Shown here piece by piece: positions 44,701 through 62,445 of a stretch of DNA of 64,000 nt. This DNA is from Betaproteobacteria bacterium HGW-Betaproteobacteria-1 (GTDB taxonomy: Bacteria > Pseudomonadota > Gammaproteobacteria > Burkholderiales > Methylophilaceae). Both the position numbers and the translations under genes were made by a program. The stretch is taken from NCBI GenBank assembly GCA_002842435.1, contig PHCX01000004.1:1-64000 (forward strand), in the 5' to 3' direction. The first letter of the stretch is position 1, and the number at the start of each line of letters is the position of its first letter. The notes under the pieces are model-generated. The model ran no database searches. It worked only from the letters and a program-made list of their open reading frames with translations, and was not told the DNA's origin.

Positions 44701-44824
44701 GCGAAGATTTGAGTGCAGGACTCCGCATCTCAGTTGCGTAATCTAATGAAAATCATTAGCCGCTATTCATGACTATCGGCACATGAATTTTTTATAAGCG
44801 CTATATGATTTGACTCATGCAGTA

Positions 44825-44844
44825 CACATTGTGTTTGCAATGTG
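44825..44844 (+). other. Hairpin in the pqqA leader
   Basis: CACATTG-TGTTTG-CAATGTG, a perfect 7-bp stem, lies 26 bp before the pqqA start. It may be an operator or an RNA element; no other structure stands out in the 170-bp gap after 44700. Confidence 0.45.
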
Positions 44845-44870
44845 CATAAAACCAGACAGGAGAATAAATC

Positions 44871-44942: not shown

Positions 44943-44957
44943 TATTGATTGAAACGG

Positions 44958-44984
44958 TTTAAACCAGTCATGTACTGGTTTAAA
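44958..44984 (+). other. Hairpin after pqqA
   Basis: TTTAAACCAGT-CATGT-ACTGGTTTAAA, a perfect 11-bp stem, 15 bp after the pqqA stop and just ahead of the terminator. It may protect the short transcript from 3' exonucleases. Confidence 0.7.
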
Positions 44985-44988
44985 AAGC

Positions 44989-45015
44989 AAAAAGGAGGCG
45001 AAAGCCTCCTTTTTT
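44989..45015 (+). terminator. Bidirectional terminator between pqqA and the macrodomain gene
   Basis: AAAAA-GGAGGC-GAAA-GCCTCC-TTTTTT. The A run and T run flanking the GNRA-loop stem allow it to end both pqqA (plus) and the convergent macrodomain gene (minus). Confidence 0.9.
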
Positions 45016-45040
45016 ATTGCCATCATGGCAGGCTGAGTTT

Positions 45041-45529: not shown

Positions 45530-45637
45530 GAGTGTTCCTGCTTTGTTATTGATGGATTACACACCATTATGCTACCAAGTCCTTGCAAGATAAATGCAGC
45601 AATTTACGTACCAAAATCCCATGCAAGTATTCTGACC

Positions 45638-45688
45638 ATGGTCCATATGTAATGTCCGTGCTCCGTGTGAGCAAAGTCGTGCCACCTA
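45638..45688 (+). pseudogene. Truncated ettA 5' end (left boundary of the sMMO segment)
   Basis: Fifty-one bases align to the first 52 bases of the intact ettA at 60781 with five substitutions and a one-base deletion. The deletion shifts the frame at the third codon and similarity stops abruptly after GTGCCACCTA. Three of the five substitutions are at third codon positions, so the copy diverged while still coding. It is a direct repeat of the right-hand copy and, with it, brackets the 15-kb sMMO segment. Confidence 0.85.
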
Positions 45689-45801
45689 TACCGAGCCGGT
45701 TGTTGATCTCGACAGGCAGACTGTCTGGGCTTGGGCTACGCGATGATTCTAAGTCAAAGTGCAAATGTGCGAGAAGGAGCGTCCAATTTGGACTAAGGGC
45801 A

Positions 45802-47472
45802 TCATGAGCGCGGATCCTCGCGAGTCGCAGCTGCCCATTCCGCGGTATAGCCCAAGGTTGGATCGTCAAGCGGCAATTCGGTGATCACGCACCCAGTTGT
45901 TACCATGGTACAGGCCATGCTGGCAGCCTTTTCTAACGCTAGACGGGAAACCAGGACGGGATCAAGGATGCCGGCTTCGAATAAATCGCCATAGTTGCCG
46001 GTGATGGCATTTAGGCCCCAAAACTCATCATCTGAGCTCGAAACCATCGCGATGACTTCGGACGGTACTAACCCGGAATTGATGCTGATACGGCTGATCG
46101 GTTCTTCGAGAGATTTGCGGACAATGTTTATCCCATAGTCTTGATCGAGGTTTTCGCCATTCAGTCCATTGAGCGCCCGACGTGACCGTAAAAGACTTAC
46201 GCCTCCGCCGGCGAGAACACCTTCTTTTAACGCTGCTGTGACCGAGTTGTGGGCATTTTCTATGCGTTGCAGGCGTTCCTTGATTATCAGATCGGATAGC
46301 CCACCAACTCTTACGATCACATTATTGCCGACAAGCCCCTTGATGCGATCTTCCAAGCCCTCCAGTGCGTGTGACCTTCCAGTAGGAGATTTGGTGCCGG
46401 AACGCCCGCTTTTGAGTTCCTCATGCTCCATACGCAAGCCTGCCAAGCGTTCCTGGATTGCAACGGAATCTCCGCTCGCGCCAAGAATGGTTATTTCATC
46501 TTCAGTTACTATTACGCGTTCTATGCGTCCCAAGTCTTCGATTTTTATATCAGCCAAGCTATCGCCGTTATCCTCCATAAGCACCCTTCCGCCTGTCATT
46601 GCAGCCAGATCGGCCAGCGTATCGGCGCGATGGTCGCCATAGCCGGGCGGCTTTACTGTGACACAGCGAACAATGCCACGGATATGGTTTAGCAAAAGGC
46701 CAGGTAATGCTGCCTCATCGACGTCATCAGCAATAATAAGCAGCGATCCTTTTTTCTCGGTAACTATATCCAGTAGCGGGATCAGCTCCTCGAATCTATG
46801 GATCACCCGATCATAGAGAAGAATGTATGGAGCAGACAGTTCGACTGTATTGCGATCGCTGTTTGGAGACATATAACCCTGATCCCATCTCATTCCTTCG
46901 ACGACCTCAACTTTGTCTTCCATCTCGTGTCCCAGCTCGATATTGATGATGCCGTTATCACCAGCGAGCTCTATGGCCGAGGCAAGTAACTCTCCAATAT
47001 CCTTTTCACCATTTGCAGCTACCGTCGCTACATGCGCGATGGACTCCCGGTCGGAGCAATTCCGGGCGCGTTTTGCGAGATCCGCTGTCACGGCCTGTGT
47101 CGCGCGTTCCATGCCACGCAGGATTCCGGTCGGATCGATGCCGACGCTAATACCTTTCACGACTTCAAGCAGAAATCGCCGGGCAAGTACTACGGAAGTT
47201 GTGGTGCCATCCCCCACCTCTTTGGAGACTTCGCTTACCATCTGTTGGAGCATGGTCACCCCAACATTTTTGAATCGATCGTTGAGATCAATGGTTTTAG
47301 CGACGGTAATACCATCCTTGGTCAGAATGGGGGCAATCCCAGCCGTTCTGTGTTCGATAGCTACCGTGCGACCACGCGGCCCCATGGTTACCTGCACAGC
47401 ATCAGCCAAAACGTTAACACCTGCCAGCAGGTTCTCCATTGCTGTGAATCCGTACAAAAAATCTTTTGCCAT
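45802..47472 (-). CDS. mmoG: GroEL-like chaperonin of the sMMO locus (MmoG)
   Basis: The 556-residue protein is a divergent group I chaperonin: MAKDFLYGFTAMENLLAGVNVLADAVQVTMGPRGRTVAI, then ILTKDGITVAKTI, VGDGTTTSVVLARR and KPPGYGDHRADTLADLAAMTGG match GroEL. It lacks the GroEL C-terminal Gly-Gly-Met repeat and ends with a different tail (YTAEWAAATREDPRS). MmoG is needed, with MmoR, for sMMO expression in Methylosinus and is thought to help fold MmoR or the hydroxylase. No groES-like gene accompanies it, so it may use the host cochaperonin. Last gene of the mmo run, next to the ettA remnant. Confidence 0.9.
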   Translation of the reverse strand: MAKDFLYGFTAMENLLAGVNVLADAVQVTMGPRGRTVAIEHRTAGIAPILTKDGITVAKTIDLNDRFKNVGVTMLQQMVSEVSKEVGDGTTTSVVLARRFLLEVVKGISVGIDPTGILRGMERATQAVTADLAKRARNCSDRESIAHVATVAANGEKDIGELLASAIELAGDNGIINIELGHEMEDKVEVVEGMRWDQGYMSPNSDRNTVELSAPYILLYDRVIHRFEELIPLLDIVTEKKGSLLIIADDVDEAALPGLLLNHIRGIVRCVTVKPPGYGDHRADTLADLAAMTGGRVLMEDNGDSLADIKIEDLGRIERVIVTEDEITILGASGDSVAIQERLAGLRMEHEELKSGRSGTKSPTGRSHALEGLEDRIKGLVGNNVIVRVGGLSDLIIKERLQRIENAHNSVTAALKEGVLAGGGVSLLRSRRALNGLNGENLDQDYGINIVRKSLEEPISRISINSGLVPSEVIAMVSSSDDEFWGLNAITGNYGDLFEAGILDPVLVSRLALEKAASMACTMVTTGCVITELPLDDPTLGYTAEWAAATREDPRS

Positions 47473-47562
47473 CTTCTGCTCCTTCGTCCTGCATGCTGAT
47501 TATTTTAAGAGGGCTCGTAGCAATGATTTAAATAATACCCAGAGCCTGATTTCAGGATATTT

Positions 47563-47913
47563 TTAATCGCTTTCTTTTTCCCCGCTCTGCTCGTCCACTG
47601 TTTTACTTGGTAGATTCATCAATTCGTTACTCATAACCATATAGCTTTGGCCCACAAGCGCACGTCTGGAGTGAGATTGTTCAAGGCGAGACCATATCCA
47701 TATAAGTTTGCGGTCGTCATGGTCGATAAAGCGCTTCACTTCTTCCATCTCTGCAGGATCGAACTCTTTGTTCCAATACATGTTCAATTCGTGGACGCGT
47801 TCCTTACCCAATGCAGCCAGCGATTTCGCTTCTTCCTCTTTTAATTCCTGGATCGTTGCATCCAGCTGCTGCGCCATTTGAGACAGAAACTCCTGATCTT
47901 CGCGATCTATCAT
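47563..47913 (-). CDS. Unrecognised small acidic protein between mmoR and mmoG
   Basis: The 116-residue product (start at 47913, MIDREDQEF, preceded by AGGAGAGCAAG) has an N-terminal coiled-coil-like helix (EFLSQMAQQLDATIQELKEEE), a middle segment with many acidic residues and two Trp (WNKEFDPAEMEEVKRFIDHDD, then LIWIWSRLEQ) and a polar C-terminus. I recognise no family. No signal peptide or membrane segment. It lies in the same direction between the sMMO activator and its chaperonin, which suggests an accessory role in activation or assembly, but this is only position-based. Confidence 0.75.
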   Translation of the reverse strand: MIDREDQEFLSQMAQQLDATIQELKEEEAKSLAALGKERVHELNMYWNKEFDPAEMEEVKRFIDHDDRKLIWIWSRLEQSHSRRALVGQSYMVMSNELMNLPSKTVDEQSGEKESD

Positions 47914-48110
47914 CTTGCTCTCCTTTGAAACTTTCTTGGCAGAGGGTCGGGGTAGGTGGTTTACCGCTTCCACAGGATTTCATTTCATGTTTCTCTTGCG
48001 GGCATTAATATTCGGTTTGTTTCTGCTCAAAGCGCTTGCGCGCGTATGCCGATCTTGGCTGTGGCCTGTGCTGTCGATGGCAGTCGATCACCACGATGGG
48101 CGATTTTTAT

Positions 48111-50423
48111 TTAGGATTTAGGCCTCAATTCGTAACGAGTCATTTTGTGATACAAGGTAGCGCGCGTGACCCCTAATATCCGGGCTGCCTCAGATATATT
48201 GCCATTGCTAGAGGCGAGAGCCGCTCGAATCCCCTGAATTTCAAAATCTACTAACGCCATCCCTCCTTCCTGCAGGGGTTTTTCACTGACCATGCTCTGA
48301 TCGATGCTATTCTGGTTGAAGAGTTTTTCATCGGGTATGCTGCCTTGCGAAAATCTTAATTCATCAAGAAAATACCAGGGCAGATCAGAAATCCTCAAGA
48401 CCTCTCCGTCGCTCATCGCAATTGAAGAGCGCAGCAAGTTAGTCAACTCACGAATGTTTCCGGGCCAAGGGTGTTTGAGGAAAATTTCCCAGACTTCTTT
48501 GCTTATCTTCATAGGCTCGTAGATCCCGATGGCGTGCCGTTCCCTTTCCAGCAGACTTTGGATCAGTCGCATTTTGTCAGGCCGCTCACGTAAAGGTGGC
48601 AGCCATACTTGGGCTCCGTTGAGACGGTAATAAAGATCGCGCCGGAAGGTGCCCTCCCGTACCTTATCTTGAAGCCTGCAATGGGTCGCAGCGACTACAT
48701 GGACATTCACCTTGATCGGCACCCGGCCGCCAACAGGAACAAATTCTGAACTATCGAGAACCCGCAACAAGGTAGCCTGAAGGTCAAGCGCCATATCCCC
48801 GATTTCATCCAGAAACAGCACTCCCTTGTCGGCCAGCAGGAACTTGCCTGGCTTGCCTTTGCTGTTGGCACCGGTGAAGCTTCCTGGCTCGTAACCGAAA
48901 AGTTCGCTTTCTATGAGTTCACGCGGGATGGAGGCACAATTGATGGCAACCAGCGGTTCATCCTTTCGCGGCCCGGCCGCATGCATGCAGCGCACAAGGT
49001 AGTCTTTGCCGACGCCAGATTCACCGGTTATCAGAATCTGGATTTTCTTATCCTGGAATCCGATTGCCTGCTGTAGAGCGGATTCCAGCACCGAATCCTT
49101 CCAGTGGGTATCTTCCCGATGGTTTAAGCTGATACTGGATGAAACCAATGTCGATAGTGTTTTCGCAGGCAAGACAAGAGGAATATTGGACTGCTTTGGG
49201 GTGTGGTCAGTTATCTGAGAAATCCCACTGCTTTCGACTTCGCCTCCACTTTTTTTAGGCGGCTCCAGCTCCTCACGCATTTTTTTAGGTACCTGAACAA
49301 GGATATTAGTGGGGGGGGCGAAATTCTGTACTCTGGGCGGTTCCTGTTTCTCTGCGATGTTCTGTTGCATAGCGCCGGCCTCAGCCAATAGGCGCATCCC
49401 ATTCGGTGATTTGACTTCCAGGGCACCACCACCTTGTGCCAGTCGTGCAATCATATCCTGCAACCCGTTATCCAATACCTGATTGATGTTTTGGTTCAGG
49501 AGGTCTTCGTGGCGCTGATAACCAAGAAGAAGTAGTGCAGTGCGGTTTACCCCATGGATACAACCTTGGTCGTCAACATTGAGCATGCCGTCGAAGAGGG
49601 CTTCTTGCATTCCCACGATCTCGCCGGAAAGGGCAGGCCGCAACTGAATCAGGAATCCAGCCGGCCCGTGCCGTTTGAAAAGGTTCAGTTCGACCAGAGA
49701 GCCGGCGAGACGCAAGAATGCCAGCATGGATTGAGCCGAGTCGCGGCGATCTGTAATGATTCCAAGCGTTGCCAATAATTGGCCGTCAGGCTGGAATATG
49801 GGATATCCGGCCGTCGCGAAGGGGTGAAGTTCTGAGTAAAAATGTTCTTTGCCGTCAAAAGCCACTGGCTCCCGGAGAACGGCCGCTGTGCCCAATCCAC
49901 TATTACCCAGGGAGTCTTCGCTCCAGCTTACGCCGAGCTGCACCAGTCGCCTGCCCGCCGGACACAGTTGCAGACCGGAATTCATTACGTGGATCAAGCT
50001 GCCAGAAGCATCCATAACTAACAAGGTGACGCCGGTTTCCAGCAGATATGAATAGAGGTTGTAGGTCAACTCAAGCAAGCTTTCCTTGATTCCGCTCATG
50101 ACTTGCTTTTTAGCAGCTTCATCGGCACTGCCGTTCAGCAGGTCAGCCTCAGGTCGAAGCCCATAGTCCTCTAAGCATCTTCGCCAAGCTTCCGCAACCT
50201 GTGGGCGCACCCAATCCAGGCCTTCGGGCGCCTGTTGGCTTTGCTTCATCCAGTTCCATGCAACGCCGGGGCGATCCACCCCGAACAGACCAGTTTCCTT
50301 TTCAGAGGCTGCAATGCTGCTTGACCCCGTCTCAGAGTAGCCATTCGAGGAGATATAATCTTCTGGAGGAGCCATCCGCATGTCTCCTGAATTTGGATGA
50401 AATCTGACTTTACTGCTACCCAT
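48111..50423 (-). CDS. mmoR: Sigma-54-dependent activator of sMMO (MmoR)
   Basis: The 770-residue enhancer-binding protein (start at 50423, MGSSKVRF, with ATAGGAG six bases upstream; the frame continues upstream without support) has an N-terminal AcoR/GAF-like sensory part (about residues 70-250), a PAS-like stretch near 280-340, a Pro/Lys linker, an AAA+ domain with Walker A GESGVGKD (467-474), the sigma-54 contact loop as GSFTGA (514-519) instead of the usual GAFTGA, Walker B GVLFLDEIGD (534-543), and a Fis-type helix-turn-helix (GNISEAARILGVTRATLYHKM). It should act on the -24/-12 promoter upstream of mmoX through the paired palindromes at 56170-56206. Confidence 0.92.
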   Translation of the reverse strand: MGSSKVRFHPNSGDMRMAPPEDYISSNGYSETGSSSIAASEKETGLFGVDRPGVAWNWMKQSQQAPEGLDWVRPQVAEAWRRCLEDYGLRPEADLLNGSADEAAKKQVMSGIKESLLELTYNLYSYLLETGVTLLVMDASGSLIHVMNSGLQLCPAGRRLVQLGVSWSEDSLGNSGLGTAAVLREPVAFDGKEHFYSELHPFATAGYPIFQPDGQLLATLGIITDRRDSAQSMLAFLRLAGSLVELNLFKRHGPAGFLIQLRPALSGEIVGMQEALFDGMLNVDDQGCIHGVNRTALLLLGYQRHEDLLNQNINQVLDNGLQDMIARLAQGGGALEVKSPNGMRLLAEAGAMQQNIAEKQEPPRVQNFAPPTNILVQVPKKMREELEPPKKSGGEVESSGISQITDHTPKQSNIPLVLPAKTLSTLVSSSISLNHREDTHWKDSVLESALQQAIGFQDKKIQILITGESGVGKDYLVRCMHAAGPRKDEPLVAINCASIPRELIESELFGYEPGSFTGANSKGKPGKFLLADKGVLFLDEIGDMALDLQATLLRVLDSSEFVPVGGRVPIKVNVHVVAATHCRLQDKVREGTFRRDLYYRLNGAQVWLPPLRERPDKMRLIQSLLERERHAIGIYEPMKISKEVWEIFLKHPWPGNIRELTNLLRSSIAMSDGEVLRISDLPWYFLDELRFSQGSIPDEKLFNQNSIDQSMVSEKPLQEGGMALVDFEIQGIRAALASSNGNISEAARILGVTRATLYHKMTRYELRPKS

Positions 50424-50445
50424 CTTACTCCTATCCATAAAGTAG

Positions 50446-50474
50446 TTATTAAAGTATTTCCATTTTGGTATCAA
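50446..50474 (-). promoter_or_regulatory. Possible sigma-70 promoter of mmoR
   Basis: On the minus strand TTGATA and TAATAA are 17 bases apart, about 20-50 bases upstream of the mmoR start and within the 190-bp gap after mmoC. The -10 match is poor, so this is tentative; a separate promoter for mmoR would let the activator precede the structural genes. Confidence 0.3.
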
Positions 50475-50613
50475 GGTTATTAGCGTTAAGCGAAGTTGTT
50501 CTATATCCGCCAACTAAGACTTTGAAACATAACTGCTGCTACAACCTATAGATGCTACTTGGTGCGGTCTACCAGATGTGGGCGAGTTGTGGGGCAACCC
50601 ATCAAGCGAGTTT

Positions 50614-51699
50614 TTAGGCCTGACGGAGGACAAAACCTCCTTTTTCAGGATCGGCGCTTGCTTCGCTGGCAGGTGTGAATTTTTCGAGGTATATCTGATC
50701 CTTGGGCACACCATACTCCTCTGCCACTTTGAATGTAGCGTCGACCATTCCGGGTGGGCCGCACAAATAGATGTCGGGTTTGGCCAGTGCTTCAGTCAGA
50801 TGCTGGCGCAATAAATCTACAACCGTTCCTGTTGCCCCCTTCCAGTCCGGCTCAGGAAGCATGACAGCCACGCCCAATGTGAGTTTGGGCATTGATTCTG
50901 CCAGTTTCAGTAGCTCATCATAGTAAAATAGTTCATGTTGATGAGTGACGCCAAAGAGCAGTTTTGTTTCATGAGGAGCTTTTTCTTCCTGCATCGCGCG
51001 AACCATCGACAGAACAGGCGAAAGGCCGGTACCGCCTGCAATGAAATAACGGGGCCTGATGCCGTTGTGGTGCAGGTTAAACACGCCGAAAGGGCCGCGC
51101 AAATTGACCTGCTGGCTGATTTTGGCATCGTTCAATAGGTATTGAGAGAAAAGCCCGTCGGGTTGCAACCGGATCAAGAATTCCATGATGCCGTCGTCGC
51201 TGGGAGTCGTAGCCGGAGAAAAGGAGCGGCGCGTCTGAGTACCCGGAATTTCGATGTCCATATATTGACCAGCAAAGAAAGGCACTTTCAGCGCTACGCC
51301 AGTTTCCGGATCGGTGCATCGCACGACGAAACGTATAACATTGGAGGAAATCTTGTCACAAGCGATCACCTCGCCCGACCACTCGGTCTTCACTTCATGG
51401 AATGAGATTCTGTCGAAGGTGTAAGGTACGTCGAGATCAAGATCGCCACGAGGATAGCAACGACAGAGAAGTACCAGGCCATCCTCCTCTTCATTGGATG
51501 GCAGCGCCTGTGAGCTGTAATTCTTCATCTCATAATCGCCATCGGTACATTGCGCCTTGCAGGTCGCGCAACCGCCTTCTCTGCAAGATGACAGAAGGGT
51601 GACGTTTTGCCGTAAGGCCGCTGTGATTACATCCTCACTGAGGCCGCATTCAAAGGAGGTTGTTTCACCATCCTCGGTTTGTATTTGAATTCTAAACAT
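50614..51699 (-). CDS. mmoC: sMMO reductase component (MmoC)
   Basis: The 361-residue protein takes electrons from NADH to the hydroxylase. Its N-terminal plant-type 2Fe-2S domain has Cys39, Cys44, Cys47 (SCREGGCATC) and Cys79, each exactly three lower than the cluster ligands I recall in Methylococcus MmoC. The FAD site is RRSFSPATTP and the NADH site FIAGGTGLSPVLSMVR, with YLCGPPGMVDATFK near the end. It is about a dozen residues longer than usual, from a C-terminal extension (EASADPEKGGFVLRQA). Eighteen bp after mmoD. Confidence 0.95.
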   Translation of the reverse strand: MFRIQIQTEDGETTSFECGLSEDVITAALRQNVTLLSSCREGGCATCKAQCTDGDYEMKNYSSQALPSNEEEDGLVLLCRCYPRGDLDLDVPYTFDRISFHEVKTEWSGEVIACDKISSNVIRFVVRCTDPETGVALKVPFFAGQYMDIEIPGTQTRRSFSPATTPSDDGIMEFLIRLQPDGLFSQYLLNDAKISQQVNLRGPFGVFNLHHNGIRPRYFIAGGTGLSPVLSMVRAMQEEKAPHETKLLFGVTHQHELFYYDELLKLAESMPKLTLGVAVMLPEPDWKGATGTVVDLLRQHLTEALAKPDIYLCGPPGMVDATFKVAEEYGVPKDQIYLEKFTPASEASADPEKGGFVLRQA

Positions 51700-51717
51700 G
51701 AATAACTATCCTAAAAG

Positions 51718-51999
51718 TTATACCGGGTTATTTTTTCGGTTTTTATCAATCCCCTGAAAATAAACGAGGACGTGGCGTACCGCTTCTCTGGAGGACTCCA
51801 GACTCAAAGAACAGCCATGTTGAGCAAGTTCACTGTCGCGGAAAATTTGCCAGCGCCACATGAAGCCAAGGTCTTCGGTATAAGCGCTATAGTTCGCCGA
51901 GCGTTGGAGTTCAATTCGCTCAAACACTTCAAGCTTCTCAAGCAAACCTTTTTCAACAGAAGGAGAGAAGTCTGTTTCCTCATCAATATTTGCATTCAT
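51718..51999 (-). CDS. mmoD: sMMO accessory protein MmoD
   Basis: The 93-residue protein occupies the mmoD position between mmoZ and mmoC and shares the family core (YSAYTEDLGFMWRWQIFRDSELAQHGCSLSLESSREAVRHVLVYF). MmoD (OrfY, component D) binds the hydroxylase and inhibits it, and in Methylosinus takes part in the copper switch with methanobactin genes. No methanobactin genes are in this window. A GC-rich hairpin lies in the 95-bp gap upstream. Confidence 0.9.
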   Translation of the reverse strand: MNANIDEETDFSPSVEKGLLEKLEVFERIELQRSANYSAYTEDLGFMWRWQIFRDSELAQHGCSLSLESSREAVRHVLVYFQGIDKNRKNNPV

Positions 52000-52055
52000 T
52001 TCCAGAAACCTCCGGATACCAGCAATTTAGAAAGACACTTTTCATAATCTGGGAG

Positions 52056-52077
52056 GCCCGGGCGTAACTGCCCGGGC
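52056..52077 (-). other. GC-rich hairpin between mmoZ and mmoD
   Basis: GCCCGGGC-N6-GCCCGGGC, a perfect 8-bp all-GC stem, in the 95-bp gap after mmoZ. No T run follows, so it is a likely RNA-processing or attenuation element separating hydroxylase/MmoB genes from mmoD and mmoC. Confidence 0.7.
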
Positions 52078-52094
52078 ATTCCATTTTTACCTTG

Positions 52095-52598
52095 CTACTG
52101 AGGCACACCCAGATGAAGTACTTTCACGCCACGTTCCTTACGTAAATCTTCCAAAGAGGTTGCCAAATAATCTGTGTTGCGGAGTTCCATAAGGCGAGAG
52201 CCCAATTTGGTATCCGCTGCAAGGAAGTGATTCACGGGCATCACTGGTGGCTTGTACTGCTGACGGAATTCAAAGTGAATTTTCTCGGCAGAGTATTTGC
52301 ATTCAGCTTTTTCCAACTTCTGCACCCAGGTCTTGGCCACATCCGCAGCTAGTTCACCGGTTGTGCAACGGGCAGAGAGGTCTTCAGCTTTAAATGCACT
52401 GGCCTTGAGTACTGCCAGCTTCTCCTCGATCTTGGCCTCGATGAAGAGGTAGTCGAGATCAAGTTCGTAGGACGTACGCAACGGCGACGTATGGTTATGA
52501 CGAAATTCCTGAATAAACCTGGTAGCTGCTTCAACGGACGTCAGCCCGTTAATTTTTGCTTTCCAGTTTTCTCGAACCTCATTAATTTTATTTGCCAT
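52095..52598 (-). CDS. mmoZ: sMMO hydroxylase gamma subunit (MmoZ)
   Basis: The 167-residue all-helical subunit of the (alpha beta gamma)2 hydroxylase MMOH. The sequence has the typical Asn/Lys-rich helical start ([21 protein letters not shown]) and the conserved [37 protein letters not shown] segment. No metal or catalytic residue is expected. Nineteen bp after mmoB. Confidence 0.95.
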
Positions 52599-52617
52599 GA
52601 TAATTTCCCTTTTTCTG

Positions 52618-53034
52618 TTAGATGTCAGTTAACTTACGATCCAGACCCATGAGCTCGGAAGTAATGATGAACTTATCGCCAATAGTGTAGGCGCGCCCAA
52701 TTGTTGAACTCACGTTGACCAAGAAGTCATAAACCGTGAAGGACTTGCCGAGCATTTCGCCCGCCTCGTGCGTGTCGACTTCGATCTTGCCGTCGGCCTT
52801 GATCCACCAGTAACCGGCCTTGTCTTCTACGGTAAGGGATGGATTTTCGGCCTTGCCGTCTTTCAGAATCATTTCGTCGATAATGGCATCTATCTCGTCG
52901 CTTTTCATAAGCACCAGTACGACGGCTTCGGACTCTTTAACGACCTGGTTTTCCTCAGCAAAGAATTCTTCATGGAAGGCCTTGCCCTCTTTTGCCATGA
53001 TGCCGGCGTTGTATGCATTTTTATTGGTAGTCAT
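52618..53034 (-). CDS. mmoB: sMMO regulatory protein B (MmoB)
   Basis: The 138-residue coupling protein binds MMOH and gates oxygen and methane access. Core seen: [34 protein letters not shown] and [39 protein letters not shown]. The N-terminal tail needed for function is present ([20 protein letters not shown]). The start at 53034 has AAGGAG upstream and lies 10 bp after the mmoY stop; a longer frame would overlap mmoY by 28 codons. Confidence 0.96.
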
Positions 53035-53044
53035 AAATTTCTCC

Positions 53045-54223
53045 TTATCCCTTGAGGTTGCGGGTGATGGCGGCGACGTAATGTTCAACATCAACTTTAA
53101 TGTTGAGCGGCTTGGCATAGTCTTGAACCCAGTCGTTAAATACGCGGCGAACGGCTTCCTGAACGCTGACTTTGTCAGTAACCCCGGGAATCACGTCAAT
53201 ATTGCTGTAGATGCCCATGAAGTCAGTCAGTGATGCAACCGTTTTGGGCAGCCATTTGGCAGTCCAGGCACTCAAATACTTGCGGTTGAGCTCAGAAAAC
53301 TCGGGGTCGTCAGCCAGGCAGGTTAAGTAAAGATCCTGTATTGCAGCCTTGGTGGTCTGGAAATAAGTCTGCGCCTGACCAATGAAGAATGGCGTGAGAT
53401 TGTCGCCAAAATACGGGGCAACACGCTGGAAGAACTCACGACGTACAAATTGTCCGAACAATGGTTCAATAACTGCATGAATCGACCAGAGGATCTCGTT
53501 ATGATCCTGAATGCCTTGCCAGACTTCCTGAACTGTTTCACGGGCGCCCGAATAAATCGGATCCTTCATCCATAAGGCTTTCGACTCGTCGGTGGACTCA
53601 GAGAAACCCGGAACCAGCTTGGCGATGAATACTTTTTCAAGTTGAATCATCTGAGAGATATCGTTCTTGTCGAACGCAGCAAAAACAGCCGTGCTGCGGC
53701 CAAAATCCGACAAGATGTCCCGGCCCACTGAAGAGTGGGCATTGAACAAACCGTACTCATAGTGAAGCAATGCACCGTAAAATTTGCCGATCATTTCGTC
53801 GCGCCAAAAGGCATCCATCGTGCGAATGCTTCCTTCAGCCGAATAGCCCTCAAGGAAACGGTTGGTATAACCCCATTCCTCTGTTTTATTTTTCACATAA
53901 GGAGCATGCCAGCGGCGTGCTGGATCGCGATGGCGATTCCAGTCAGTAGTGCGTAGCTCCGTCAACTCATTACCCCATGATGGTCTGCCACCGTGGAACT
54001 TCTGAATCCAGTCGCCCCAGTCAAGCCCTCCTGCAATCCAATCCGGATTAGGCTGGGTGTACCCATTGAGGATTTCGTATTCGCTCAAACGCTTCCAGCG
54101 AGGCGTCATGAAATAGTTCATTCGAGTCTGCGTATCCAGCTTTCCTTCAGGAATCGCAGCCAAAATCACAGCTGCAGTTGCCGGGTCTGTCAGGCCACGT
54201 TTTCTTTGTTCTAAAGACATCAT
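53045..54223 (-). CDS. mmoY: sMMO hydroxylase beta subunit (MmoY)
   Basis: The 392-residue non-catalytic partner of MmoX; highly conserved pieces are MTPRWKRLSEYE, DWIAGGLDWGDWIQKFHGG, RRWHAPYVKNKTEEWGYT and GQFVRREFFQRVAPYFGDNLTPFF. It has the ferritin-like fold but no iron ligands. A second Met immediately follows the first; either could be the start (AGGAGAAG upstream). Sixty-nine bp after mmoX. Confidence 0.96.
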   Translation of the reverse strand: MMSLEQRKRGLTDPATAAVILAAIPEGKLDTQTRMNYFMTPRWKRLSEYEILNGYTQPNPDWIAGGLDWGDWIQKFHGGRPSWGNELTELRTTDWNRHRDPARRWHAPYVKNKTEEWGYTNRFLEGYSAEGSIRTMDAFWRDEMIGKFYGALLHYEYGLFNAHSSVGRDILSDFGRSTAVFAAFDKNDISQMIQLEKVFIAKLVPGFSESTDESKALWMKDPIYSGARETVQEVWQGIQDHNEILWSIHAVIEPLFGQFVRREFFQRVAPYFGDNLTPFFIGQAQTYFQTTKAAIQDLYLTCLADDPEFSELNRKYLSAWTAKWLPKTVASLTDFMGIYSNIDVIPGVTDKVSVQEAVRRVFNDWVQDYAKPLNIKVDVEHYVAAITRNLKG

Positions 54224-54257
54224 TCTTCTCCTAATTCTTTTTCAGTTAGATCCGTTC

Positions 54258-54278
54258 CCGAGTCAAATACTGGCTCGG
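54258..54278 (-). other. Hairpin between mmoX and mmoY
   Basis: CCGAGTCA-AATAC-TGGCTCGG, an 8-bp stem with one G:T pair, in the 69-bp gap after mmoX. No T run; it may stabilise the mmoX message or set its level relative to mmoY. Confidence 0.5.
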
Positions 54279-54292
54279 ACCGGGTTTAATGA

Positions 54293-55876
54293 TTATTTGA
54301 AATTTGCCAAGGGATCGCTAAAGACGCAGTTGGCACGCTTGATGTCATCCACCGTCCACAGGTTCTTGCCATCCACATGAGGTTGGGCAATCAGTGTCTT
54401 GCCATCGGAGCGAACACCCAGACCTTCGATAATCACGTCAGACAACTCACGACCTGCATACTGTTCGAAGATGTTTTGGCTTTCATAGCGCTCTGGCTCA
54501 GACAGCCACATACGCTCACCCCAGTCATCGGTAAGGGCGTGCTTTTTGCCGTTGTATTCATGTATCCGCAACGAGCCAGCGCTCTTGGATAGAGTTGGGC
54601 AGAATGGAACTTGGGAAACACGGTCGATGTAAACGGTATGACCCTTTTCAGCCAACCATTGCAGCGGAAGGAATCCGCTCTTCGGATCTTCGCAACCCAG
54701 AGCCTTCCACTCTTCGTAAATCTTGCCATAGTGGTCGTACCAGCCTGGATAATTGGCTTCAAACCATGCCATGTCTTCAGCATCAGGGAGTGACAGACGG
54801 AAAAATCCAAGGGGCCATGTGGCGTAAGCAATCAGTGCGAGATCATGGTGCGCCCAGTAAGCATCCTGTTTGGCATCGCGCAGGCTGGGTGGAGATTTAA
54901 CGCCATATTTACCGAGACGGCCGATCCAGATACCACCCCAATCTTCATAAACCCAGCGATTCCAGGTTTTTACCCATGGTTCTACCTTGAATTTGGAGCC
55001 ATATTCGAACAAGAAGCCGAGCGCGGGAGTGAAGTACTTCTGTTGCGTCCAAAAGGCGTTGTTCAGGTCGGCGTTCAGGTATTTTTGCGCATTTGGGTCG
55101 TTGGCAATGGAAACAACGGTTTGGTAACCATTCGCCATGTGACGCAACTCGTCCGTCTCGATAGACAAGAACACGGTAGGTGTAACTTCATCGCCATTGG
55201 CTGATGCCCATTCGGTAACCGCAACGATGAGCGGGTTGGTGAAGCAGGCCTCGCCTACGAGTTGCAGGTTGATTGAACACTCAACCGCATCGCCTGAGAT
55301 GAAGCCGTCAGCGAACACGCGTTTCATGCCTTTCCACAGCGGCCCGATAGTCCGGGTGCGACGCGCATCATTATGGCCGGCTGGGTCATGATAGTGCTTG
55401 GAGAAGTAGTAGTTCACAAAGCCGCATTGATTGGTGTGGCGGATCTCATCAAGCACTTGAGCCAGATAACCGTTCTTTTGTTCTGCGGCAGTCGCTGAGT
55501 CCCATAGCATCGCAGAGGCCGCGATAGCGTTGTATTCACCAGACTCGAGGAAATTCGAAACGACCTTCATGGCCTCACCCCAACGCGGATGCACCCGATT
55601 GCCGGCATCCAGACGCGTGAGACCATCCAGTAGCGTGCCGAACTGGCGCTCGTCTTTCACGGACTCCATACGTGCATACTCTTTGGCAATGAGCTTGAAC
55701 TGTTCCTTAGTGTCATTGGCCATTTTGTATTTCGTAGGATATTTGGTGCTGTTGCCTTTGAAATCCCAGTTGAATTCCTGCATCCACTTGTGAACTTCTT
55801 GTGCTCCCACGCTCGTTGGAGCGCGGTTTGCGCTTAGTGCATCGGTTGCTGCCTTGGTTGCTGAACTTATTGCCAT
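54293..55876 (-). CDS. mmoX: sMMO hydroxylase alpha subunit, diiron catalytic subunit (MmoX)
   Basis: The 527-residue protein is the methane-oxidising subunit. The ATG at 55876 (GGAG upstream) gives a protein colinear, without gaps as far as I can recall, with Methylococcus capsulatus MmoX. All six iron ligands are present at the usual numbers: Glu114, Glu144 and His147 (DEIRH), Glu209, Glu243 and His246 (DELRH). Cavity residues Leu110, Cys151, Phe188, Thr213 and Ile217 are also kept. Closely identical blocks are AEQKNGYLAQVLDEIRHT, DPAGHNDARRTRTIGPLWKG and KFKVEPWVKTWNRWVYEDW. Butane or propene monooxygenase alpha subunits are more distant, so true sMMO is the best reading. First gene of mmoXYBZDC. 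Confidence 0.97.
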   Translation of the reverse strand: MAISSATKAATDALSANRAPTSVGAQEVHKWMQEFNWDFKGNSTKYPTKYKMANDTKEQFKLIAKEYARMESVKDERQFGTLLDGLTRLDAGNRVHPRWGEAMKVVSNFLESGEYNAIAASAMLWDSATAAEQKNGYLAQVLDEIRHTNQCGFVNYYFSKHYHDPAGHNDARRTRTIGPLWKGMKRVFADGFISGDAVECSINLQLVGEACFTNPLIVAVTEWASANGDEVTPTVFLSIETDELRHMANGYQTVVSIANDPNAQKYLNADLNNAFWTQQKYFTPALGFLFEYGSKFKVEPWVKTWNRWVYEDWGGIWIGRLGKYGVKSPPSLRDAKQDAYWAHHDLALIAYATWPLGFFRLSLPDAEDMAWFEANYPGWYDHYGKIYEEWKALGCEDPKSGFLPLQWLAEKGHTVYIDRVSQVPFCPTLSKSAGSLRIHEYNGKKHALTDDWGERMWLSEPERYESQNIFEQYAGRELSDVIIEGLGVRSDGKTLIAQPHVDGKNLWTVDDIKRANCVFSDPLANFK

Positions 55877-56042
55877 GATCACTACTCCTTTTCGATATCT
55901 CTCTCTATTTAGTTAGATAGTGTGCGTATTTGTGTAATGGATCGACTAAGTTCGCGTTACCTTTTGGGTGCGGTGGCCTCAGCGTCCTATACGCTTCTGT
56001 ACAACTCGAACGAACGATTTTTAGATTCGTGTAAACCCTAAG

Positions 56043-56057
56043 GCAAATTCCGTACCA
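56043..56057 (-). promoter_or_regulatory. Sigma-54 (-24/-12) promoter of the mmo operon
   Basis: TGGTACGGAATTTGC on the minus strand has the invariant GG and GC ten bases apart and resembles the consensus TGGCAC-N5-TTGC. Transcription would start near 56031, giving a leader of about 155 bases before mmoX. Confidence 0.85.
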
Positions 56058-56169
56058 CGCTTACATTGCATTTATATTACACTTATATTTATCTTTATTT
56101 TCAATTACATATATACATCCATCACGAATATCTTCATTAAAAAAATATATATATAACACCAGATAAATC

Positions 56170-56206
56170 TGTATATTATTTATACAATCTGCATATTATT
56201 TATACA
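56170..56206. promoter_or_regulatory. Two tandem palindromes, candidate MmoR binding sites
   Basis: TGTATA-TTATT-TATACA (56170-56186) and TGCATA-TTATT-TATACA (56190-56206) repeat with a 20-bp period, so both would face the same side of the helix. They lie about 115-150 bp upstream of the -24 element, the usual distance for enhancers of sigma-54 activators. The DNA between is very AT-rich and could bend or bind IHF. Confidence 0.65.
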
Positions 56207-56746
56207 GATAGCTGGTCATTTCCGGCTTTGGGTCCTGCGATTCAATCATTGCCAGAAAATGTTTAAGTCGTAGATGACACCTCGCAAAATCAACCGGTCA
56301 GGTTCCTGCACAGCGCGATAAGAAGTGGCCTGGAATACTTGAACAATCTGATAGCGGTGGATCTGCTACCTTTGACGGTACTACTGAGTAAGGAAATAGT
56401 GCTGAAGGTTGCAAAAAGAACGAGACGGACGCACTCAGCGGCTTACAAAGAAAAGAGGGCCTGGCAAGTCTTGGGGGTTGTTGGCCGAGCCGGCGCTGTG
56501 GTTTGAAGTGCCTTTCGACCGGATACGAAGTGGAAACGGTGGTTCAGCAAGCGGGCTGCTGACGTGTTTGGTGGAACCCTATATTTGAATCTATAGATCT
56601 ATAGAAGAACTCAATGCAGTCAAAGATAGTTTTATGGAGTTTCAGGTATCTACCGGTGTATTACCATCGGTCAGATGGCCAAATAGATGGCAATAGCCAA
56701 GATTGGTCGCCATATCGGGCCACCCCTGGACTATAGTGAATCAGCA
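56207..56746. other. 540-bp gap between the mmo enhancer and the Crp-type gene
   Basis: No gene is supported on either strand. One short element stands out, the 16-bp perfect palindrome TCTATAGATCTATAGA at 56590-56605. Short broken frames may be debris of an older gene, but I cannot identify them. Confidence 0.6.
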
Positions 56747-57499
56747 TCAGCCGACAACTTTTTTAAGTGAAGGCAGAAGACGGTCGAATTCATCTTTCAC
56801 CACCCTGTAGCATTCACAAGAGCGCGCTTCCAGTCCAGGCCGGTTGATCACTTTAATATGCCCACGGCTATATTCAATCAAACCTGCACGTTGTAACTTG
56901 CCAGCTGCCTCGGTGACCCCCTCACGCCGTACACCCAGCATATTGGCGATCAATTCCTGAGTCATCAAAAGCTCATTATTTGCCAGCCTGTCCAGGCTGA
57001 GCAGCAGCCAGCGACATAATTGTTGTTCTATGGTGTGGTGACGATTACAAACCGCAGTCTGCGCCATCTGTGTAATCAAGGCCTGAGTGTAACGGAGCAA
57101 TAAGCGCATCATGGCCCCATTGCGATCAAACTCATTCTTTAACAATTGAGCTTCCAACCGATAGCCATAGCCGGCGCTCTGCACGATAGCCCGGCTTGGC
57201 GTGGTTTCGCCACCCATAAACAGTGAAATGCCAAGTATGCCCTCATTCCCCACGACTGCGATCTCGGCTGAAAGGCCATCCTCCATCACATACAACAGGG
57301 AGACTATCGATGTGGTAGGAAAGTACGCATGCGCTAACCGTCCCCCCGACTCATACAACACATCTCCAAGACGCATTTCAACCAGTTCCAGATGAGCGCG
57401 GAAAAAGTCCAGATCTGCCGGAAGCAAGGCCTCAAGTAAGTGATTTTGCAGGGGTGAGTGTTCTAGTACTAAGGCTTTTTTTTCAGAGGGAGGTTTCAT
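56747..57499 (-). CDS. Crp/Fnr-superfamily transcription regulator
   Basis: The 250-residue protein has an N-terminal cyclic-nucleotide-binding-like beta roll (DFFRAHLELVEMRLGDVLYESGGRLAHAYFPTTSIVSLLYVMEDGLSAEIAVVGNEGILG) and a C-terminal winged helix (LMTQELIANMLGVRREGVTEAAGKLQRAGLIEYSRGHIKVI). It lacks the Fnr cysteine set for an iron-sulfur cluster. It is the last gene of the upstream set on the island and sits directly before the mmo promoter region. Its ligand and targets cannot be told; regulation of the island is a fair guess. Confidence 0.87.
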   Translation of the reverse strand: MKPPSEKKALVLEHSPLQNHLLEALLPADLDFFRAHLELVEMRLGDVLYESGGRLAHAYFPTTSIVSLLYVMEDGLSAEIAVVGNEGILGISLFMGGETTPSRAIVQSAGYGYRLEAQLLKNEFDRNGAMMRLLLRYTQALITQMAQTAVCNRHHTIEQQLCRWLLLSLDRLANNELLMTQELIANMLGVRREGVTEAAGKLQRAGLIEYSRGHIKVINRPGLEARSCECYRVVKDEFDRLLPSLKKVVG

Positions 57500-57567
57500 C
57501 TCTGATCCAAAGTGAATTTATTGTGGCATGCCCATGCTGGTACCTGGCGCAACATTTAAAATGCTGG

Positions 57568-58272
57568 TTATGCAAAATATCTATCCTCAAGCAGCATGTC
57601 TTCAAAAAATGCGCCATATGGTTGATTGGGGTGACGAATATGAATTTCGAGAACCCAAAGTAAACGAGATGGATGGAAATCCAGATCAGCCAAAGGGCCT
57701 TCGTAAACAGCTGCATGAGGAAACTCGCCCAGACGATGCCCTGATAAATCCATATTCAGCTTCCAGCCGCGCTGCTCTGCTCTGGAGATGGCAAATTCGT
57801 AGAGTGTCTTGCCGGTGGCGCCCTGCAGTAACCAGTGCTGCCTGACTTCGTGAAAAATAGCTCTGGCATCGTCTGCGCAGCGCTTCTTTTCGCTATTGCT
57901 GCCGCTGACGAAAGTATCGCCGCCATCCCCTTCCCACTCTTTCCAAACGGGGCCAATATCTATCAAAAAGATATCGTCTTCTCCCAGCACAATGCCAGGA
58001 TCAGAGGCCTCGCCAAAGGTCTTGGTGGTATTGCTACCGAAACGCACGTAAACATCGTGCCAACCACGCACCATCCCGGATTCAGCCAACACATCTTTTG
58101 CGAACTCTACCGCGTCTTCTTCCACCATTCCCGGTTTTACGGAGGCGGCGATGCGTTGAATTGCATCGCGCGTTAATTTCCTGACGGCCAGCATTTTCTC
58201 GGGATCGTAGGCAGTGCCAACATGCTCAAATTGAGTCTGTAAAACTGATGCATTACTTACTGAATTATTCAT
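57568..58272 (-). CDS. M24-family (pita-bread fold) metallopeptidase-like protein
   Basis: The 234-residue protein resembles Xaa-Pro aminopeptidase/creatinase C-terminal domains. The dinuclear metal ligands seem present: Asp in FLIDIGPVWKEWEGDGGDTF (two Asp), His in SGHRLGEFPHAAVYEGP, Glu in LLWVLEIHI and Glu in YGAFFEDMLLE. The usual N-terminal creatinase domain is missing, as in short M24 members. Start at 58272 follows AAGGAAATGAAAA. Peptidase or not, its link to methane oxidation is unknown; it lies between ferredoxin and regulator genes on the same strand. Confidence 0.8.
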   Translation of the reverse strand: MNNSVSNASVLQTQFEHVGTAYDPEKMLAVRKLTRDAIQRIAASVKPGMVEEDAVEFAKDVLAESGMVRGWHDVYVRFGSNTTKTFGEASDPGIVLGEDDIFLIDIGPVWKEWEGDGGDTFVSGSNSEKKRCADDARAIFHEVRQHWLLQGATGKTLYEFAISRAEQRGWKLNMDLSGHRLGEFPHAAVYEGPLADLDFHPSRLLWVLEIHIRHPNQPYGAFFEDMLLEDRYFA

Positions 58273-58320
58273 TTTTCATTTCCTTCTAGGGATTGATAAG
58301 GTCATTAGGTCAGGTAAGAT

Positions 58321-58659
58321 TTAAAAGGATTTCCCCGGGAGCCGGACAACAAGACCTTCCATCCAGGGCTCAAGTTTGATCTGGCACGCCAGACGATCGG
58401 AGGAGTTTTTCCCTGCCAAAGCAGTAATCAGTCTTCTCTCTGCTCGTTCCATAGGCGGTAGCCGGCGAATCCATGACCGATCTATGGTCAATCGACATGT
58501 TCCGCAAGCGGCATTGCCGCCGCAAATGCCTGGTATGAGTTGCGAACTGTGCAAGGCGGTCATTAACGTTTGTCCGGTTGGCATCGTCATCTGAAATTCT
58601 TCGTCATCGCTTATCTTCAGCGTGATCGTTACTATTGGAGGTACTTGCGATGATTTCAT
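58321..58659 (-). CDS. Adrenodoxin-type 2Fe-2S ferredoxin
   Basis: The 112-residue protein has the ferredoxin cluster site CGGNAACGTC (C-x5-C-x2-C) with a fourth Cys in SSDRLACQIKLEPWMEGLVVRLP. The C-x5-C spacing fits the adrenodoxin/putidaredoxin group rather than plant-type MmoC domains. The start at 58659 is 25 bp after the gnd stop; an upstream TTG start at 58713 would overlap gnd. It could feed electrons to an oxygenase, but no partner reductase or P450 lies nearby. Confidence 0.82.
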   Translation of the reverse strand: MKSSQVPPIVTITLKISDDEEFQMTMPTGQTLMTALHSSQLIPGICGGNAACGTCRLTIDRSWIRRLPPMERAERRLITALAGKNSSDRLACQIKLEPWMEGLVVRLPGKSF

Positions 58660-58684
58660 GGCCAGAGTTGGCTTCAAGCCAAAC

Positions 58685-59599
58685 TTACTTGGATTTGATT
58701 GTGTGACCGCCAAATGCGTTGCGCATCATTGACAGTAGTTTGTAGCTGTAACCGCTATCGTCCTGGCTGGCGAAACGCATTTGCAAGGCGATGGTCAGTA
58801 CAGGTGCTGCAACACCTTGTTCGACAGCCTCTACCACTGTCCAGCGGCCTTCCCCTGAATCGGCAACATAAGGGGCCACATCGCCCAGGTCCTGGTCGTG
58901 TTTGAGTGCTTCAGCTGTCAAATCAAGCAGCCAGCTGCGCACGACAGAGCCATGACGCCATAACTCGGTGATTTGCGCCAAGTCGAGATCAAACTCTTCC
59001 TTGCCCTTCAGCAAGTCCAGGCCTTCAGCCATGGCCTGCATCATGCCGTATTCGATACCGTTATGGATCATCTTGGTGAAGTGGCCAGAGCCGATCGGGC
59101 CAACATGTGCCCAGCCGCGCTCATGTGCCGGTGCCAGTGCTTTTAATACTGGGGTCATGGCTGCAGCTACTTCAGGTTCCGCACCTACCATCAAGCAGTA
59201 CCCGTTTTCCAGTCCCCAGATGCCGCCGGATGTACCACTATCCATAAAGCCAATACCATGTTCAGCGAGAAACTGACCACGACGCATGCTGTGCTTGTAA
59301 TTTGAATTGCCGCCATCGACGACAATGTCGCCCTTGTTCAGCAAGGGGACGAGATCCTTGATCTGGTTTTCTGTAGTTTCACCTGATGGAAGCATCAGCC
59401 AGATAATTTTTTGTTTCTGGCCAGTAAGTTTGTTTACTGCATCATCAACTGACATGGCACCGATCATGCCTTCTTTGGCTACCAGCTGGTTTACTGCTTC
59501 ATGGTTGAAGTCAAAGCCGACCACTTCAATTTTATTGCGTAATAGCCGAGACGCCATATTGCCGCCCATCTTGCCTAGGCCAATCATTGCTAATTTCAT
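58685..59599 (-). CDS. gnd: 6-phosphogluconate dehydrogenase, short (NAD-type) form
   Basis: The 304-residue enzyme decarboxylates 6-phosphogluconate to ribulose-5-phosphate. Seen: Rossmann motif MIGLGKMGGNMASRLL, then GFDF, whose Asp at the end of beta-2 suggests NAD over NADP; DGGNSNYKHSMRR, the substrate loop; and GHFTKMIHNGIEYGMMQAMAEG with catalytic Lys/Asn/Glu. It is the short class, typical of NAD-dependent enzymes and of methylotrophs, where it drives the dissimilatory RuMP cycle. On this island it would yield NADH, which sMMO consumes. A strong hairpin lies just before its ribosome site. Confidence 0.93.
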   Translation of the reverse strand: MKLAMIGLGKMGGNMASRLLRNKIEVVGFDFNHEAVNQLVAKEGMIGAMSVDDAVNKLTGQKQKIIWLMLPSGETTENQIKDLVPLLNKGDIVVDGGNSNYKHSMRRGQFLAEHGIGFMDSGTSGGIWGLENGYCLMVGAEPEVAAAMTPVLKALAPAHERGWAHVGPIGSGHFTKMIHNGIEYGMMQAMAEGLDLLKGKEEFDLDLAQITELWRHGSVVRSWLLDLTAEALKHDQDLGDVAPYVADSGEGRWTVVEAVEQGVAAPVLTIALQMRFASQDDSGYSYKLLSMMRNAFGGHTIKSK

Positions 59600-59616
59600 T
59601 TGGTTTTCCTGGATGA

Positions 59617-59641
59617 GGCTTTGCAGATAATCTGCAAAGCC
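59617..59641 (-). other. Perfect hairpin upstream of gnd
   Basis: GGCTTTGCAGA-N3-TCTGCAAAGCC, an 11-bp perfect stem with a three-base loop, ends 17 bp before the gnd ATG. No T run follows. It could end the upstream small gene or sequester/stabilise the gnd leader. Confidence 0.65.
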
Positions 59642-59713
59642 ATTGTCATGCGGGGCCTAATCAGAGCTTCCTTTATCTGACTAAACTATCGTTTTAATTG
59701 ATAGACATGGAGG

Positions 59714-60061
59714 TCAGTAGGCCTTTTGGAGTAAGCGTCTGGCTTGGTCATGACCATCATAATTATGGATCAGCTCTGGTGATGATAATGAAGCTCCCAC
59801 CGGGGCATGACTTGATAAAAATTCAGGTGAAGGTTGCAACATGCGCCTTGCTTGTTCCTGCGGATCTACTGCTGCGGAACTTGACAGCGTTTGTTTCCCC
59901 GCGCTTCCTGCTGTTATGTAAAGGGTTGGCTGTAGCATACGTTGGGCCTGGCCATGGGCATCTTCCGCTGCCATGAGGGCGGGTGCATGAGCACCTATCA
60001 AGAAACAACATAGTGAGATCGCTACGCTAGTGAGTGGCTTTAGTGGGTATGTGTTTGACAT
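59714..60061 (-). CDS. Small secreted protein with three D-x3-Q-A-x-R-x-L-Q repeats
   Basis: The 115-residue product has a signal peptide (hydrophobic residues 10-30, likely cleaved near ALMAAED) and three copies of one motif: DAHGQAQRMLQP (34-45), DPQEQARRMLQP (66-77) and DGHDQARRLLQK (102-113), separated by Ser/Ala/Pro-rich spacers. AAGGAGTTCAGC gives a good ribosome site before the ATG. No Cys in the mature part, no membrane helix. I recognise no family; each repeat would form a short amphipathic helix. It is the first gene of the island run on the minus strand. Confidence 0.75.
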   Translation of the reverse strand: MSNTYPLKPLTSVAISLCCFLIGAHAPALMAAEDAHGQAQRMLQPTLYITAGSAGKQTLSSSAAVDPQEQARRMLQPSPEFLSSHAPVGASLSSPELIHNYDGHDQARRLLQKAY

Positions 60062-60780
60062 GCTGAACTCCTTAAATGGATTTACAAAAAATCGCCTGAT
60101 TCAGCAAAACTAAGCGGGTATTAATACTTATGCTTAATCTACCCAAGGGGTTGAAATATGCCGAACCACAAACGTAGAACAGCAATTGGTATGCCATATT
60201 GATATTATTGTTATTTATCAACTACTTACTTGAATTTTGTGAGTGATGGGATGTATTGTAGATAGAGACTGTGCATTCTTTCTTTACAGTGACCTGTACA
60301 GGCTTTATACAAGAGGCGAGGGTACCGTCCCTGAGTAACTGTTGAATTTGGCTCTATGCAATCTTGTGAGTTATATGAAAACGGTGAATTCACCGATTAA
60401 TTTTGTATGGACTTTGTTCTGAATTGTGTTTGAACTTTCAAAAGCTGTTTTCCGGTACAGAATCAAAAGTCATAGAAGTGACTACCGCGGACCAGCCACC
60501 AATTTTCGGCCGCTTCCAACGTAAGGGATTTATCGAAAAACTCAGCAGTAATAACTGAAATTTGAGTACAAGGTCGCGCGCACTACGATTCTGGATTTCT
60601 CAGTCCCTGCGATAGCATTTCGATACCCTGTGGCGTGAACCGGCAGGAAAGGTGCTGTAAATCTGGTGTCAGACGCTGGAAGAAAGATAGGTATGACATT
60701 TGCCCGGTAATGTTTTTATACTGATTGCGATAGTGGTTTTTTGATAAGCTTGCAACTTTTATCATCACTGAAACTGCATC
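60062..60780. other. 720-bp gap before ettA
   Basis: No gene is firmly supported. A 60-codon frame on the minus strand (60583-60765, starting MIKVASLSKNH) lacks a ribosome site and may be chance. The right-hand end of the island and the promoters of ettA and the secreted repeat protein should lie here. Confidence 0.5.

Positions 60781-62445
<1,665 letters not shown>

Follow-up and report, generated by a model that had tools for sequence, protein, structure and literature searches.

A complete block of soluble methane monooxygenase (sMMO) genes was located between native Methylophilaceae genes in the genome of Betaproteobacteria bacterium HGW-Betaproteobacteria-1 (assembly GCA_002842435.1). 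The stretch analysed, here called the window, covers positions 1-64,000 of contig C10 (PHCX01000004.1, 407,381 bp); the genome comprises 2.50 Mb in 10 contigs and is 99.93% complete. Our reading, held with good confidence, is that the block was likely gained horizontally from an alphaproteobacterial-type source and that its sequence predicts a methanotrophic host. The host would likely be a methanotroph of the sMMO-only kind that uses the ribulose monophosphate (RuMP) cycle.

The sMMO operon and the host pathway

The genes were found on the minus strand (45,802-55,882) in the order mmoX-mmoY-mmoB-mmoZ-mmoD-mmoC-mmoR-small orf-mmoG. Every frame is open and full-length, in agreement with a preliminary description of the window that had given mmoXYBZDC, mmoR and mmoG as intact; all eight follow the canonical order. 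The sMMO set is complete, with alpha, beta and gamma hydroxylase chains, coupling protein and reductase encoded together with mmoD and mmoG, two genes whose presence at a locus distinguishes sMMO from other di-iron monooxygenases.

The hydroxylase alpha chain is encoded by mmoX (54293..55876, minus strand, as for all genes of the operon); the ATG at 55876 is a likelier start than the GTG at 55882 with which the listed open reading frame (ORF) begins. NCBIfam assigned MmoX to no family. Matches to solved methane monooxygenase alpha chains reached 1022-1075 bits, and the next family, phenol hydroxylase, reached 69.5. Following alignment to the Methylococcus capsulatus locus (L023), all six iron ligands were seen to be kept (E114, E144, H147, E209, E243 and H246), at positions that we took to be those of the ligands and that were confirmed as E or H in L023; C151 and T213 are also retained. 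For the beta chain, MmoY (53045..54223), 133 homologues were counted, of which 120 were listed. MmoB (coupling protein, 52618..53034; NF045804, 247.3 bits, cut-off 245), MmoZ (gamma chain, 52095..52598; NF045805, 245.9 bits, cut-off 230), MmoD (51718..51999; TIGR04550, 98.0 bits, cut-off 80) and MmoC (reductase, 50614..51699; NF045803, 530.7 bits, cut-off 500) exceed the curated NCBIfam cut-offs for sMMO components. The profile match to residues 32-166 of the listed ORF, which extends to 53118, points to 53034 as the mmoB start. MmoC retains four ferredoxin-type cysteines (motif CREGGCATCKAQC...C). By Pfam, mmoR (48111..50513) encodes a sigma-54-dependent activator with GAF, PAS, AAA and Fis HTH domains and mmoG (45802..47472) a GroEL-like chaperonin (PF00118), which is 50-52% identical to the MmoG of three Methylocella loci. 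The small orf beside mmoG (47563..47973, 136 aa) had no Pfam or NCBIfam match, and relatives of it were found at 63 of the 73 sMMO loci that a scan of named genomes yielded.

A sigma-54 promoter (TGGTACGGAATTTGC, 56043..56057, minus strand) is predicted ~180 bp upstream of mmoX and agrees with 9 of 10 consensus positions. Similar sites (8-10 of 10 positions, GG-GC core) were present 77-440 bp upstream of mmoX in 13/13 other loci examined from the 73, as counted without shuffled controls. RpoN is encoded in the host genome, and because both MmoR and RpoN are present the operon is likely controlled as in other sMMO systems.

The host was placed by genome search in family f1, the Methylophilaceae, with the genomes P-RSF-NP-02 (G051) and Jr-19feb18-34 (G163), and its EttA is 97% identical to a Methylophilaceae-labelled protein and 92% identical to that of Novimethylophilus kurashikiensis (first named matches). 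The family assignment made earlier from gene content thus holds, and a grouping of the host with known methanotrophs was, as far as testable, not borne out. Full-length Ca-type MxaF and Ln-type XoxF are encoded on contig C9, as judged by a D-x-A or D-x-D motif that we take to separate the two. The XoxF reported in the window itself comprises no more than a C-terminal portion (17-652) of a pyrroloquinoline quinone (PQQ) alcohol dehydrogenase truncated by the contig end. Two hexulose-6-phosphate synthases (HPS) and one hexulose-6-phosphate isomerase (PHI) scored above curated cut-offs. MMO genes and a methanol and formaldehyde pathway thus coexist, by sequence, in one genome, and the methane-to-formaldehyde route proposed at the outset is encoded, with its methanol step predicted to be supplied by MxaF or XoxF of C9 and not by the window fragment.

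No PmoA match was obtained in the host genome by a PmoA-family search in which two matches came from the positive control, Methylomonas sp. LW13; this control was the only one of seven genomes to match. The search replaced an earlier Pfam PmoA run on the host genome only, in which 14 controls were also silent.

In the pathway proposed, MmoR with RpoN would start transcription at the predicted sigma-54 site, and MmoG would assist folding of the enzyme. The MmoXYZ hydroxylase, working with its coupling protein MmoB and with MmoC as NADH reductase, would convert methane to methanol in the cytoplasm, and MxaF or XoxF would oxidise methanol to formaldehyde in the periplasm. Formaldehyde would then be fixed by HPS and PHI of the RuMP cycle, and an extra gnd gene near the operon may contribute to the oxidising branch, from which reductant is drawn. 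Methanol made by sMMO would in this way feed a pathway already present in the family.

The contig opens inside the PQQ alcohol dehydrogenase gene (window 1-791), whose terminal part shares 94.8% identity with that of another such gene on contig C1 (G000:C1:379407-380042). These near-identical ends suggest that repeated copies of the gene may have broken the assembly at this point.

The island and its empty site

The operon lies in an island of 15,093 bp (45687..60779, no strand assigned) that extends from the end of a left border repeat to ettA and holds mmoXYBZDC, mmoR, the small orf, mmoG and five further genes. Its borders were defined by two congeners in which the site is empty (G003, locus L114; G004, locus L113). 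In the segment first proposed, 45638..60061, the start at 45,638 falls inside the left border repeat. To the left stands a native gene that we read as macro-domain-like (45041..45529, minus strand; no Pfam match), and to the right native ettA (60781..62445, plus strand); both are 97-99% identical in G003 and G004. The island is flanked by an imperfect direct repeat of its target gene: the right copy (60780..60830, plus strand) is the undamaged ettA start, which matches G003 exactly and differs from G004 by a single base, and the left copy (45637..45686, plus strand) is decayed, with 4 substitutions and 1 deletion across 51 aligned positions.

At the empty sites, accC, prmA, a DUF3426 gene, the macro-like gene and ettA run on uninterrupted, 138 bp separating the macro-like gene from ettA; the contig start cuts accC in G003 and the contig end cuts ettA in G004. 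An empty site in all congeners was rejected, as it was observed in two of five. The stretches fetched from G001 and G005 showed accC, prmA and the DUF3426 gene and lacked both the macro-like gene and ettA; for G002, the DUF3426 gene gave no match. G002, G003 and G004 are only 74-85% complete. Base composition also sets the island apart: its G+C content is 49.3%, versus 55.4% in the left flank (30,001-45,529) and 56.7% in the right (60,781-64,000), and third-position G+C (GC3) is 0.55 in six mmo genes versus 0.67 in eight host genes.

The same contrast in G+C, along with the grouping of the operon with alphaproteobacterial sMMO described below, would be expected if sMMO DNA of an alphaproteobacterial methanotroph had been misjoined into a Methylophilaceae contig. 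We regard such a chimera as very improbable. The decayed copy of the host ettA start at the far border is something that an assembler would not make, and native genes neighbour the island on both sides within a contig of 407 kb. A gnd gene within the island (58685..59599, minus strand; TIGR00872, above cut-off) matches genes of the congeners G001 and G002 at 92% protein and 80-83% DNA identity. The cluster to which the window MmoY belongs (4 member sequences) occurs on 9 contigs; the longest of these measures 364,007 bp and is not the one that holds the window (407,381 bp); the lineage has thus likely been assembled more than once. The misassembly that the preliminary description had allowed for was, as far as testable, not borne out, given that two congeners show an empty site and that a decayed copy of the ettA start stands at the far border.

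That gnd had been noted as RuMP-type. The gene is real, and it is a second copy: the native gnd lies in a pgl-gnd-zwf cluster on C9, as it does in G001, G002 and G005. Since the island copy is nearest to the congener genes and only 83% identical to the C9 copy of its own genome, its sequence points to the island having spent time in a Methylophilaceae genome, either earlier or in the course of reaching this one.

The largest gene-free gaps in the island measure 870 and 718 bp. The second (60062-60779), with no listed gene before ettA, replaces the native upstream stretch of that gene, so ettA may now use another promoter.

Origin of the operon and its distribution

Among loci with whole genes, the nearest MmoX was that of Methylocella (87%), and MmoY (69%) and MmoZ (64%) were likewise nearest to Methylocella; a partial locus from a Methylocystaceae metagenome-assembled genome (MAG; L065) matched MmoX at 88% over 74% of its length. 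MmoX is 81-87% identical to the proteins of cultured methanotrophs. MmoB was nearer to other alphaproteobacterial loci (75-76%; L011, L012, L015 and L026) than to Methylocella (71%; L004). The placement of mmoR before mmoG is found in Methylocella and is common to Methyloceanibacter and Rhodopila.

Trees were built from concatenated MmoXYBZC, with omission of eight of the 73 loci that lacked the full gene set (L018, L024, L052, L053, L065, L072, L073 and L076) and of L107, which duplicates the L016 contig. In the 66-row tree the window joined 13 alphaproteobacterial rows with full support. A more careful tree of 26 rows, chosen by us from the 66, placed it with 11/11 alphaproteobacterial rows (100/100), and the three other Methylophilaceae loci clustered there with Glaciimonas KJS.1 and Methylophaga LH_M6 (100/100). 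A tree of MmoY (14 loci together with 53 of the 120 homologues listed) grouped the window, inside the alphaproteobacterial-type group, with two metagenome proteins, P0002 (86%) and P0003 (72%), which are the nearest MmoY sequences among the matches listed. All of these trees contained methanotroph sMMO, without an outgroup of other di-iron monooxygenases, and the window sMMO falls among the methanotroph sequences. The operon was thus likely transferred, on the evidence of these groupings, from a bacterium with an alphaproteobacterial-type sMMO.

Plasmid and phage origins were considered and rejected. Among 72,556 plasmid records there was no sMMO-level match, the best of 70 matching records being 53.6% identical (Rhodococcus), and of five viral-contig stretches that matched a pattern none encodes a relative.

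Several points weigh against acquisition by transfer and against a methanotrophic host. MmoY scored 20 bits below its curated NCBIfam cut-off (NF045802, 679.6 bits, cut-off 700). The agreement of the predicted sigma-54 site with its consensus was equalled by 18 of 1000 shuffles, which preserved base content only. The G+C contrast is moderate, as three other stretches on the host's own C9 range from 51.7 to 55.4%, and the host DUF3426 gene has an island-like GC3 of 0.56. Neither the eight island ORFs scanned with Pfam nor the mmo genes scanned with NCBIfam include an integrase or recombinase, overlapping ORFs in other frames not having been scanned. Branch order inside the alphaproteobacterial-type group names no donor genus in either the concatenated or the MmoY tree. 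The empty site would also allow an older island that was lost from G003 and G004 by recombination between the repeats. Finally, sMMO attacks a broad range of other small molecules, so methane need not be its natural substrate.

The breadth of this substrate range would suit a cell that uses sMMO mainly for co-oxidation, or for short alkanes or other small molecules, while still living on methanol or methylamine, as Methylotenera of the same family is described as doing in PMC11978286. The operon, however, has the full methanotroph set including mmoD, mmoR and mmoG, its MmoX is close to those of cultured methanotrophs, and its methanol product would enter the main pathway of the host directly; we therefore consider a use other than methane unlikely and favour methane oxidation.

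The trait had been described as not established in the family. It is rare there, with mmoX in 4/187 genomes from 3 of 24 genera (4/119 among genomes of 90% completeness or more and 5% contamination or less), and within the genus it is confined to one of six genomes, all five congeners, three of them incomplete as given above, lacking it. It is not unique to this genome, an option that was rejected on finding three further carriers in two other genera. A draw of 399 genomes from the order, which did not include these three, gave 18 matches, and only that of the window's own genome was at sMMO level; the other 17 (23-35% identity) are taken as other di-iron monooxygenases.

Four carriers in three genera, and empty sites that exact excision between border repeats could leave, would fit an sMMO ancestral to the Methylophilaceae and lost by most members. 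To this we give almost no credence: 183/187 genomes (115/119 of high quality) had no match, the island is low in both G+C and GC3, and the Methylophilaceae operons do not form one clade. A single shared origin in the family was rejected when the four-row clade was submitted to the approximately unbiased (AU) test (p 1.03e-05), in which the rows were set by family membership, yet after a quick tree had been seen. Because the window operon groups apart from the three other Methylophilaceae operons, at least two separate gains of sMMO in the family are likely on this sequence evidence. We lean towards repeated conversion to methanotrophy of a family known as textbook partners that consume methanol released by methanotrophs. 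Here a single alphaproteobacterial-type island would have entered a genus otherwise without sMMO, and two other genera would have drawn independently on a second sMMO lineage; the outcome would be an undescribed sMMO-only kind of methanotroph with the RuMP cycle.

The related genomes showed further features. The Methylophilaceae MAG P-RSF-NP-02 (G051:C4, JABFRO010000001.1; L052, L053 and L056) has four mmoX copies, two in tandem before one mmoYBZDC set and two with no further mmo structural gene in the fetched flanks. The Methylophaga MAG LH_M6 (L067:10001-11581) carries a complete sMMO operon near to that of two Methylophilaceae MAGs, and PmoA was not found in its genome by the PmoA-family search. 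Genomes of Glaciimonas, Skermanella aerolata, Acidiphilium and Rhodopila (L017, L019, L026, L009 and L010), to our knowledge not usual methanotrophs, also have sMMO operons.

In addition to gnd, the island carries four genes on the minus strand upstream of mmoX: a Crp/FNR-type regulator (56747..57499; PF13545, above cut-off), an M24 metallopeptidase family protein (57568..58272; PF00557), a 2Fe-2S ferredoxin (58321..58713; PF00111) and a 115-aa orf with no Pfam match (59714..60061). Within the fetched stretches, none of the 73 named loci carried counterparts of these four. A distant gnd-family gene (27-29% identical) was present at two of the 73 (L050 and L067) and on the full L016 contig (L107).

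Comparison with known systems

Methylophilaceae are commonly read as non-methanotrophs in methane-fed communities. They are called non-methane-oxidising in PMC12482762, and according to PMC8782848 (2022) methane oxidation is not known from any Betaproteobacteria. No report of sMMO in Methylophilaceae was found in the part of the literature searched, which included few subscription journals and did not cover the likely source paper of P-RSF-NP-02. The enzyme is of a known kind, and the host and the combination of sMMO only with the RuMP cycle are, as far as could be checked, new. The host would likely have the capacity to live on methane directly, without depending on methanol that other microbes release. 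If sMMO works in some Methylophilaceae, cross-feeding need not account for all of the label seen in isotope experiments with methane, and pmoA surveys would miss such organisms because PmoA was not found in their genomes. The empty site, the insert and the host together make it testable whether a single 15-kb acquisition suffices for a methanol user to become a methane user.

A betaproteobacterial sMMO has precedent in a MAG of Fen-999 (Rhodocyclaceae) from the Slate River floodplain, as given in PMC11264602 (2024). Like the present case, it places sMMO in a betaproteobacterial lineage on MAG evidence only; it differs in belonging to another family, and the sequences were not compared here. 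Three Methylophilaceae MAGs, P-RSF-NP-02 (G051), Jr-19feb18-34 (L013; G163) and A14_bin-1761 (L016; G162), resemble the window host in family, in possession of sMMO and in having no PmoA match. Unlike it, they belong to other genera, their operons fall in the Glaciimonas KJS.1 and Methylophaga LH_M6 clade, and the MmoY of L013 and L016 is only 55% identical to that of the window.

Gammaproteobacterial loci (such as Methylococcus capsulatus L023, Methylotuvimicrobium buryatense L020, Methylomonas L021 and L038, Methylovulum L034) likewise hold complete sMMO, but their MmoX is 82-83% identical to that of the window and an mmoR-like gene follows mmoG or is absent from the fetched stretch (L023). 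These hosts use the RuMP cycle, and most gammaproteobacterial sMMO hosts also carry particulate methane monooxygenase (checked here only in the L038 genome). The closest likeness is to the sMMO-only Methylocella and Methyloceanibacter (L004-L006 and L008), which share the order mmoXYBZDC, then mmoR, small orf and mmoG, with MmoX 86-87% identical; the L004 genome, the only one of these tested, had no PmoA match either. The window host differs from them in class and in its RuMP enzymes with MxaF and XoxF, whereas Methylocella fixes carbon by the serine cycle.

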